Part shown: positions 38,433-59,251 of the stretch, piece after piece | Numbering within the stretch: position 1 is the first letter of the stretch | How the letters are laid out: every line of letters starts with the position of its first letter | Source: an uncultured Neglectibacter sp. | Lineage (GTDB): Bacteria; Bacillota; Clostridia; Oscillospirales; Acutalibacteraceae | Direction: 5' to 3' | NCBI GenBank assembly: GCA_946554335.1 | Contig: CAMNSA010000006.1 | Location: 1 to 64,000 of the forward strand | DNA: 64,000 nt | Made by a program: the position numbers and the translations under genes | Notes under the pieces: model-generated | What the model saw: only the letters and a program-made list of their open reading frames with translations | The model's database searches: none | Told to the model about the DNA's origin: nothing

Positions 38433-38655
38433 AATTTCTCTCTTTTGAAAAAGTAAAATCGGGGGAAATCGCGTATATATCAATGGAAACGAAAGCGGAA
38501 AGGGCGAAATTTGCCTGACGCGCAAAACAGACCGGCAGGGAAACGCTGCATAGGGAAGTGGATTTTTATGTTTTTACTTTCTCCTGTCTGAAAAACGGAT
38601 TTTGGATGTCGAGAGCCGACGATTGCCGGTGCCGAGGACAAAAGTTTTATTTCAT

Positions 38656-38844
38656 ACTTCATATGAAGTGATATTTTCCCGTCGGGAAGTGATATGAAAG
38701 CCTGCGGCTTCCGTGATAATATATTCACCCTTAAAACTGTGCAAAGCACAATATCACTCGGCTGTGCCGAATATCACGGCACAGCAATATCACTCGCCGT
38801 AAGGCGAATATAACTGAGACACTCTTCCTTACGAAGAGCGTCTC
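38656..38844. repeat. non-coding hairpin chain B
   Basis: Eight stems in 189 bases, several joined by the spacer ATATCAC or GTGATAT: ACTTCAT/ATGAAGT (38656-38669); TTCCCG/CGGGAA (38676-38688); AAGCC/GGCTT (38698-38710); TGTGC/GCACA (38738-38750); CGGC/GCCG inside a larger GCTGTGCCG/CGGCACAGC (38761-38785); TCGCC/GGCGA (38794-38807); GAGAC-CTCTTC/GAAGAG-GTCTC (38816-38844). The 427-base gap between the IMPACT gene and dgt holds only this plus about 220 A+T-rich bases without features. It ends 16 bases before the dgt start. Confidence 0.75.
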
Positions 38845-38859
38845 AAGGGGGGGAGTCTT

Positions 38860-39855
38860 TTGACAGTACGGGAAAAGATCCAGCAAAAAGAGCGGGAAAG
38901 CCTTGCTGACTGCGCGATGCTTTCAGAAAAGAGCAGAGGACGGCAGATCCCGGAAAAGGAGTGTGATCTGCGCACGCCCTTTCAGCGTGACCGGGACAGG
39001 GTCATTCACTGCAAATCCTTCCGCCGCCTGAAGCATAAGACCCAGGTGTTCCTCTCTCCGGAGGGAGACCACTACCGCACGCGTCTGACCCATACTTTGG
39101 AGGTCTCCCAGATCGCCAGGACCATTGCGAGAGCGTTGGAGCTCAACGAGGATCTCACCGAGGCGGTGGCCTTGTCTCACGATCTGGGCCATACTCCCTT
39201 CGGTCACGCGGGAGAGCGGGCGCTTGACGCTCTTTTGCCCCGGGGGTTTCGCCACTATGAGCAGAGTGTGCGGGTGGTGGACAAGCTGGAAAAAGAGGGC
39301 AGAGGCTTAAACCTCACCTTTGAAGTGCGAAACGGGATTCTCTGTCACACCAGCGGGGAGGAGGCCCAAACCATGGAGGGGAAGATCATCCGCTGGGCGG
39401 ATAAGATCGCCTATATCAACCATGACATCGACGACGGGATCCGGGCGGGGGTGCTCAAGGAAAGCGACATCCCCAAGGAGATCACTCGGGTGCTGGGAGA
39501 TTCCAAGACGAAGCGGATCACCTCTTTGATCTCGTCCATCGTGGAAAACAGCAGGGACGGCAGGGTCACCATGGATCCCCAGTCTCTGCAGGCCTTTGAA
39601 AAGCTCAACGATTTTATGTTTGAGGCGGTATACCTCAATGAGTACGCGAAAAAGGAAGAACGAAAGGTCCCGCACATCATTGAGAGCCTTTTCAGGCATT
39701 TTCTCGATCCGGACCATCTGCCCGATTATCTGCGGGCGATCGCCGAGAAGGAAGGACCCGAAATAGCGGCCTGCGACTATGTGGCGGGGATGACCGATCA
39801 TTACGCGGTGGAGTGTTACAAGGAGCTTTTCATCCCGAAAGCCTGGAACCTGTAA
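38860..39855 (+). CDS. dgt: dGTP triphosphohydrolase-like HD protein
   Basis: A 331-residue enzyme of the dGTPase family, which hydrolyses dNTPs to nucleoside and triphosphate. HD-domain metal ligands are visible: RTRLTHTLEVSQIART (His), VALSHDLGHTPFGHAGE (His-Asp) and later KIAYINHDIDDGI (Asp). TTG start with GGGGGGAG at four bases. It leads a dgt-dnaG-sigA block common in Clostridia, joining nucleotide control to replication priming. Its 5' leader abuts hairpin chain B, whose last stem is only 15 bases upstream. Confidence 0.92.
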   Translation: MTVREKIQQKERESLADCAMLSEKSRGRQIPEKECDLRTPFQRDRDRVIHCKSFRRLKHKTQVFLSPEGDHYRTRLTHTLEVSQIARTIARALELNEDLTEAVALSHDLGHTPFGHAGERALDALLPRGFRHYEQSVRVVDKLEKEGRGLNLTFEVRNGILCHTSGEEAQTMEGKIIRWADKIAYINHDIDDGIRAGVLKESDIPKEITRVLGDSKTKRITSLISSIVENSRDGRVTMDPQSLQAFEKLNDFMFEAVYLNEYAKKEERKVPHIIESLFRHFLDPDHLPDYLRAIAEKEGPEIAACDYVAGMTDHYAVECYKELFIPKAWNL

Positions 39856-59102: not shown

Positions 59103-59125
59103 AAATCCCAGAAAACAGAATAAAT

Positions 59126-59244
59126 CCTTATCAAGAGCGGCGGAGGGACAGGCCCTGTGATGCCCGGCAACCTGTGGCGAAAGCTGAAAGGTGCTAATTC
59201 CTGCGGCGGTTCCTGCTTTGGGGGCCGATAACCGAAAGATGAGG
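59126..59244 (+). ncRNA. SAM-I (S-box) riboswitch
   Basis: P1 is closed by CCTTATC (59126-59132) and GATGAGG (59238-59244). Internal S-box landmarks are present in order: ATCAAGAG with GGCGGAGGGAC, CGGCAACC, GGTGCTAATTCC, and the kink-turn and pseudoknot parts (GGGGGCCGATAACC). It binds SAM and then favours the downstream terminator, lowering metK expression when SAM is plentiful. Confidence 0.96.
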
Positions 59245-59251
59245 CTTTTTT

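Follow-up and report, generated by a model that had tools for sequence, protein, structure and literature searches.

We consider the chain of short hairpins that lies ahead of dgt in this uncultured Neglectibacter sp. likely to be the array end of a non-autonomous, MITE-like mobile element whose inverted heptamer array is probably recognised by the four-helix "23S rRNA intervening sequence protein" (IVP), with the copy in the window (the whole 64,000-nucleotide stretch analysed) being an old insertion. A sequence-only reading had offered either a mobile, MITE-like repeat or a structured RNA controlling dgt-dnaG-sigA. The first of these suggestions is supported by further copies in the same genome, an order-wide and patchy occurrence, terminal inverted repeats, split host terminators, orthologous sites free of the element and copies with genes inside.

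Anatomy of the element and its copies

The chain is real as first described: eight hairpins occupy 38651–38845, five exact and two variant ATATCAC/GTGATAT spacers lie among them (Table 1), and dgt begins 15 bases beyond the end of the last stem, with a TTG at 38860 as its start codon. The fold of 38640–38870 is far from chance, at −83.9 kcal/mol against a shuffle mean of −52.0 (z −7.3; 0 of 200 dinucleotide shuffles as low), and ATATCAC occurs 14 times in the window against 3.1 expected (0 of 100 shuffles reach 14). The first description required revision: hairpin 6 is degenerate, and the chain forms the right two thirds of an element reaching left to about 38541, a limit good to a few bases and set by copies of the same subfamily in a same-genus genome, G013 (L387, L391 and L392). 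The two spacers are one heptamer, inverted about a centre at 38720–38737, with ATATCAC reading outward on each arm; from left to right the array comprises three hairpins with GTGATAT, the centre, four hairpins with ATATCAC and a long terminal palindrome.

The chain is also, as had been stated, neither an intrinsic terminator, which has a GC stem with an immediate T-run where hairpin 8 is followed by AGGGGGGG, nor a CRISPR, in which long identical repeats separate unique spacers where here a unit of only 7 nt repeats with variable palindromes between. No IVP/S23 open reading frame was seen in the window element. Rfam scans, run on the whole window and locally, returned only Gut-1 and a SAM riboswitch (RF00162; window 59125–59245, plus strand, 76.9 bits).

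The window copy is atypical in occupying the 5′ leader of dgt rather than a terminator (dgt and dnaG are named from a reading of their translations), and its rejoined site folds no better than shuffles (−9.8 vs −11.8 kcal/mol). The element's left-end terminator has no T-run in this copy, as needed if dgt is transcribed through it. We infer an old insertion in the dgt leader, in which the decayed left-end terminator would let transcription reach dgt. In the surrounding sequence, a promoter-like motif at 38446–38486 (AAGTA ... GCGTATATA) recurs, by eye, before dgt in several same-genus relatives; the window leader owes extra length to the element; and directly 3′ of hairpin 8 (38846–38862) lie the TTG start and a Shine-Dalgarno that is very rich in G, where the relatives examined mostly start dgt with ATG.

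Table 1. Coordinates of the element and its parts within the window
Feature	Position	Strand	Basis or remark
Whole MITE-like element, 305 bp	about 38541..38845	+	by-eye comparison with L387, L391, L392 (same-genus genome G013)
Left copy, possible 4-bp target-site duplication AGGG	38537..38540	.	direct repeat with 38846-38849; weak alone
Core CTGCATAGGGAAGT of the left terminal inverted repeat whose partner is hairpin 8	38546..38559	+	counterpart CTGCATAAGGAAGT in G013 L387
Decayed left-end terminator of the element itself, stem without following T-run	38553..38584	+	by eye against L387 GGAAGTGGAAATTATGATTTCTGCTTCCTTTTTT
Gut-1 match below cut-off, left arm, opposite strand	38642..38724	+	36.4 bits
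Hairpin 1	38651..38667	+	one base differs in L391/L392
Spacer ATATCAC, bottom strand (GTGATAT on top)	38668..38674	-	exact
Hairpin 2	38675..38688	+	sequence reading
Spacer ATATCAC, bottom strand (GTGATAT on top)	38689..38695	-	exact
Hairpin 3	38696..38712	+	sequence reading
Variant spacer GTGATAA	38713..38719	-	sequence reading
Centre TATATTCACC	38720..38729	+	can pair, with one mismatch, with GGCGAATATA at 38803-38812; covarying forms in relatives
Hairpin 4	38738..38750	+	sequence reading
Rfam Gut-1 (RF01706) match, right arm	38746..38816	-	52.9 bits, gathering score 50
Spacer ATATCAC	38751..38757	+	exact
Hairpin 5	38758..38770	+	covariation across 49 copies
Spacer ATATCAC	38771..38777	+	exact
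Hairpin 6, degenerate in the window copy	38778..38786	+	consensus TGCGAAGCA over 49 copies
Spacer ATATCAC	38787..38793	+	exact
Hairpin 7	38794..38807	+	sequence reading
Variant spacer ATATAAC	38808..38814	+	sequence reading
Hairpin 8, right terminal palindrome / inverted repeat	38815..38845	+	sequence reading and comparison with other copies
Right copy, possible target-site duplication AGGG	38846..38849	.	overlaps dgt Shine-Dalgarno

The spacer–stem pattern is not unique to this site. The same genome holds a second intact array between convergent genes (C5:96315-96464) and a decayed third, which adjoins an IVP gene broken by two stops (L316). A covariance model built from right arms (49 sequences) matched 25 of 99 genomes, the source genome included, most of the genomes compared being metagenome-assembled. 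Within the genus, matches were confined to 2 of 29 genomes, the source genome with 2 and G013 with 20, a number in which one copy may count twice, once per arm. A two-unit pattern scan of genome contigs yielded at least 114 stretches, and among the matches listed all 80 records are Clostridia, all marked metagenome-assembled; nine viral contigs matched the scan as well. Such patchy occurrence fits a mobile element, and a short element with two matches and a decayed copy in one genome has the several copies per genome expected of a MITE.

In all, 90 non-identical copies sharing this plan were extracted. Their centre can pair with the 3′ side of hairpin 7, the 10-bp pair being perfect in 73 of 90 and taking four covarying forms, of which only the free positions are informative, most letters having been fixed by the extraction pattern. 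The part left of hairpin 1 is subfamily-specific and often contains a terminator-like hairpin, and in many copies the left end is an inverted repeat of hairpin 8, itself a palindrome, these left repeats being unscored against chance. The family thereby has the terminal inverted repeats of MITEs; the left repeat of the window copy escaped the automatic inverted-repeat search and was recognised only through L387. L169, L104, L208 and others share another palindromic module (GGGC..GCCC, GCATTTGT..ACAAATGC) to the left of the array, which is inverted in the gene-bearing copies L172 and L262.

Stems and loops read as RNA or as DNA

The array shares its hairpin–heptamer–hairpin plan with Gut-1 (RF01706; Weinberg et al. 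2010, PMC2864571), which the right arm matches above and the left arm below the cut-off. Membership in Gut-1 thus follows from the score; the claim that it is RNA is doubtful. The consulted parts of the 2010 paper present Gut-1 as an RNA known solely from environmental (human gut) sequences, and a table there marks it as certainly RNA (PMC2864571), whereas in the window family it forms one portion of an inverted array, in DNA that appears mobile and comes from identified Clostridia. That the two arms of one copy match on opposite strands was a first sign of symmetric DNA rather than of one transcript.

We regard it as improbable that the array is a structured non-coding RNA, or a cis-acting leader RNA regulating dgt, even though the window copy occupies the dgt leader immediately ahead of the Shine-Dalgarno and the pairing covaries strongly. 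The aligned right arms, 49 in number, pair in 98.0% of cells, and double-change cells number 121 against 32.4 (sd 4.8) in shuffled data (0 of 500 as high), the signal residing mostly in hairpins 4–6, which the pattern did not fix, and in one pair of the long helix. The composition of the stems nevertheless speaks against RNA. Among 1583 pairs in the stems of hairpins 1–7, taken from 283 hairpins distinct within each position (10 more were rejected by the 70% rule, and hairpin 4 was chosen by its Watson-Crick pairs), 1541 are Watson-Crick, 5 G.T, 10 A.C and 27 other; G.U is therefore no commoner than A.C, unlike in the tRNA acceptor stems of the same loci, with 281 Watson-Crick, 13 G.T and no A.C among 294 pairs (42 distinct tRNAs; 2 rejected). 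The scarcity of G.T relative to the tRNA stems has a Fisher p of 1.4e-7.

The loops have a polarity of their own. Among the 211 loops of 3–4 bases, read on the ATATCAC strand (longer loops, in 51 of 262 hairpins, fall outside this count), 122 are of the form GNA or GNNA and none TNC or TNNC, and the closing pair is C-G in 200. The GNA/GNNA form accounts for 67 of 113 loops on the bottom strand of the left arm and 55 of 98 on the top strand of the right arm, so that polarity tracks the spacer and not one transcript strand; both arms share it relative to the heptamer while lying on opposite strands, which argues for DNA-level units. Loops of the GNA/GNNA type are unusually stable in DNA, and GNRA, which makes up 37 of the 60 GNNA tetraloops, is a form that RNA also favours. 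The array appears to function at the level of DNA rather than RNA, a case that is strong but not final, since neutral template-switch repair of quasi-palindromes could likewise give stems free of G.U.

The control of dgt-dnaG-sigA proposed by the sequence-only reading found no such backing: no evidence for a regulatory RNA emerged, the stems lack a G.U excess, and none of 27 same-genus relatives with a dgt match (loci of 2.1–4.0 kb) has two spacers within 200 bases in the dgt locus. The idea is further weakened by the IVP-bearing copies, which, L316 excepted, show by eye a −35-like TTGAAA or TTGACG starting at the outer spacer and a promoter directed away from the array.

Insertion sites and mobility

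By score, copies of the element fall within split host terminators far more often than permuted arms would predict. The 90 copies were sorted into 7 without hairpin 8, 18 that lack an element-type hairpin 8 and lie directly against a host-type terminator, by eye often next to a tRNA, 15 with too little sequence, and 50 in which the bases after hairpin 8 were sought as a reverse complement upstream of the copy. Terminator arms scoring 10 or more flank 28 of these 50, against 2.65 for permuted arms, and arms scoring 11 or more flank 20, against 1.0; the remaining 22 have no arms at score 10. In 47 of the 50, hairpin 8 is followed by at least four T in a row, an uncontrolled count. When the flanks are rejoined, L387 gives a perfect 16-bp terminator stem and L211 one of 14 bp, and the arms around the C5 copy in the source genome are 17 bases long. 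The transporter gene adjacent to that copy, nhaC-like by reading, has 13 orthologs (66–82% identity), of which 10 carry an intact terminator at the homologous 3′ end (by eye). Apparent target duplications were seen by eye in a handful of copies (AATGG, CAAAG, AAACG, AAA and, in the window, AGGG); unscored against chance, they vary from 3 to 5 bp and are absent in some copies. A candidate empty site for L224, sought with its flank in the genus of G076, was discarded as not clean: the one ortholog recovered, at 71% identity, has a long-loop terminator and lacks the array. At L338 (G117:C11), an ortholog of an element site, the terminator loop holds an unrelated insert of about 48 nt.

Several copies enclose genes. 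Beyond the gene, L169 (DUF559) has terminator arms and a left inverted repeat, as does L172, whose gene matches no family; L262 (HAD hydrolase) has both element ends and no clear arms; L162 holds an open frame of no known family; and in L302 the left repeat and hairpin 8 enclose about 1.7 kb, flanked by terminator arms and holding an IVP gene together with one that by eye is AraC-like. DUF559, carried by L169, was rejected as driver, as none of 10 other DUF559 loci from array genomes was accompanied by an array. L133, L145 and L084 were rejected as larger elements, because from sequence each resembled host genes flanked by arms or by two inverted copies. A search of 295 genomes with one left end located 21 sites, spread over 12 genomes, of which one encloses a gene (HAD); several of these sites are cut by contig ends, and only some of their open frames were run against families. 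No transposase was found and no movement was seen: among inverted arms of up to 4.5 kb in the loci examined, no transposase-bearing copy was recognised by eye.

MITEs such as RUP, BOX and Correia are small, non-coding, multi-copy elements with terminal inverted repeats and no transposase; the window family differs in lying often in terminator loops, and no parent insertion sequence was found for it. REP/BIME sequences with their RAYT are inverted hairpin units with a short tag, and the hairpins, short flanking tag, inverted pairing and intergenic copies seen here resemble them. Mobilisation by a Y1 (HUH) transposase, in the manner of palindromic elements of the REP/BIME or IS200/IS605 type, is nonetheless very unlikely. 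A Y1 match (PF01797) is present in 4 of the 12 array genomes tested (G038, G070, G076, G080) and absent from eight (G000, the source genome, and G013, G031, G032, G039, G063, G071, G083); Y1/RAYT was for this reason set aside as driver, and REP/RAYT membership fails because the source genome has no Y1 gene. Elements with terminal inverted repeats and apparent target duplications are also unlike IS200/IS605. Equally hard to credit is a transcription-end module of bidirectional terminators and hairpins, serving insulation or mRNA stability and spread by recombination between terminators, which would suit copies that lie at terminators and often bring terminator-like hairpins of their own but leaves unexplained the terminal inverted repeats, the internal genes and the link between IVP and heptamers, and does not fit the window copy in its 5′ leader.

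IVP genes and heptamer arrays

Where arrays of the family adjoin genes, the gene is most often IVP, a protein for which a relative has a solved structure, deposited as uncharacterized (2rld). An IVP gene stands directly beside an ATATCAC-type array in 4 of the 30 clostridial IVP loci with sequence (L300, L302, L308 and L316; the 30 come from 36 matches in 11 of 13 genomes), and also in L160, the left end having been traced beyond the gene in L302 only. Two array genomes, G013 and G039, have no IVP match. Elsewhere in these genomes, IVP genes are accompanied by arrays built on different heptamers, some with hairpins and some without, among them GCTAAAT, AATGAAG, GTGAAGT, GATGAAATC, GTTATGA, GGTAAAT and TATTCAT (all by eye). 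By an inverted-heptamer score, which covers 20 of the 30 loci and misses arrays visible by eye such as L310 and L306, 12 of the 20 testable IVP upstream regions were equalled by at most 1 of 40 shuffles, against 3 of 30 controls (DUF559 1/9, Y1 2/21). Because this statistic missed visible arrays, a period-7 test was added, in which runs of 14 or more occurred at 5 of 23 clostridial IVP loci and 0 of 21 controls. The source genome also contains a true 23S rRNA intervening sequence (IVS) with an IVP gene (L297; G000:C13:81650-81970), at which no period-7 run stood out.

A survey of plasmids with one IVP protein as query matched 25 records, all of which were examined; they are mostly cyanobacterial, with Treponema, Bernardetia, Monoglobus and Chlorohelix also represented, and several loci are close relatives, so the 25 are not 25 independent cases. 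In 18 of the 25, against 9 of 735 control windows, a period-7 tandem run scoring at least 13 is found no further than 330 bases from the IVP gene; the other 7 have no clear one, and periods 4, 5, 6, 8, 9 and 10 occur in none. Both sides bear runs of at least 9 at 18 loci; 12 of these carry inverted copies of one heptamer, 3 direct copies (three Planktothrix loci) and 3 neither. The heptamer arrays beside IVP genes of other bacteria are often inverted and, as a rule, lack hairpins. Both the restriction to period 7 and the inversion tell against the highly improbable view that the arrays are neutral slippage products merely tolerated by IVP genes, although period 7 is also the commonest in control windows (9 of 735, other periods 0–5; overlapping windows from 50-kb blocks of three of the plasmids, unmatched for intergenic position) and slippage has been proposed for heptanucleotide repeats in general (consulted part of PMC4679880). 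Some plasmid IVP loci sit between genes of one system (cas1/cas2, DISARM, hsdS/hsdR). L395, L403, L406, L413, L415 and L416 place IVP genes between genes of defence-like systems (DISARM, cas1/cas2, helicase/methylase, DUF1156/HEPN), with period-7 runs clear in L395, L403, L406 and L415 and weak in L413 and L416.

This linkage suggests that IVP acts on heptamer repeats. We propose that the array would be a DNA recognition region, exposed as a cruciform or as single-stranded hairpins, whose heptamers may be read as DNA by the four-helix IVP, supplied in trans, or by a complex with it; IVP would then steer insertion into hairpin loops, those of terminators or of 23S rRNA helices, with the inverted array and the terminal repeats marking the mobile element. 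No open-licence paper joining IVP, heptamers, terminators or Gut-1 was found among the titles and abstract openings searched.

Earlier work touches on this proposal. Cyanobacterial STRRs belong to the intergenic heptanucleotide repeats. Further cases are the TAACTGA repeats of Beggiatoaceae, suspected to be mobile (PMC4679880), and families in Geobacter (PMC2700814); all are, like the window family, directly repeated 7-mers, intergenic and patchy across phyla, and differ in that the consulted sections of both papers name no protein partner and describe arrays without hairpins. The 23S rRNA IVS with an S23/IVP open reading frame (PMC4990558, in the part consulted) shares the hairpin-loop insert, the complementary borders and the IVP gene, and the published Coxiella IVS has tandem heptamers upstream of its S23 open reading frame (PMC4990558). 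That IVS is located in 23S rRNA and excised from the transcript, whereas the window family is mostly at terminators, with hairpins between its heptamers; the window copy itself lies in the dgt leader and not in a 23S rRNA helix. Tentatively, and with somewhat less than even confidence, we suggest that IVP together with inverted heptamer arrays makes up a single class of mobile elements, so far unrecognised, that inserts into DNA hairpin loops, in which IVP would be the sequence-specific factor, with its own heptamer per family, and which would unite IVS, the STRR/TAACTGA repeats and Gut-1, the Gut-1 "RNA" being, as part of this same suggestion, a hairpin-bearing variant of the recognition array.

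On this account a catalogued RNA family would be recast as the DNA of a mobile element. IVP would be a concrete candidate for the protein partner of heptanucleotide repeats, whose origin the consulted part of a 2015 paper leaves open (PMC4679880), and would offer a lead on the source of 23S rRNA intervening sequences, whose origin a 2016 paper, as far as consulted, calls unclear (PMC4990558). Elements that enter terminators, often bringing terminators of their own, may in this manner spare the host while carrying genes.
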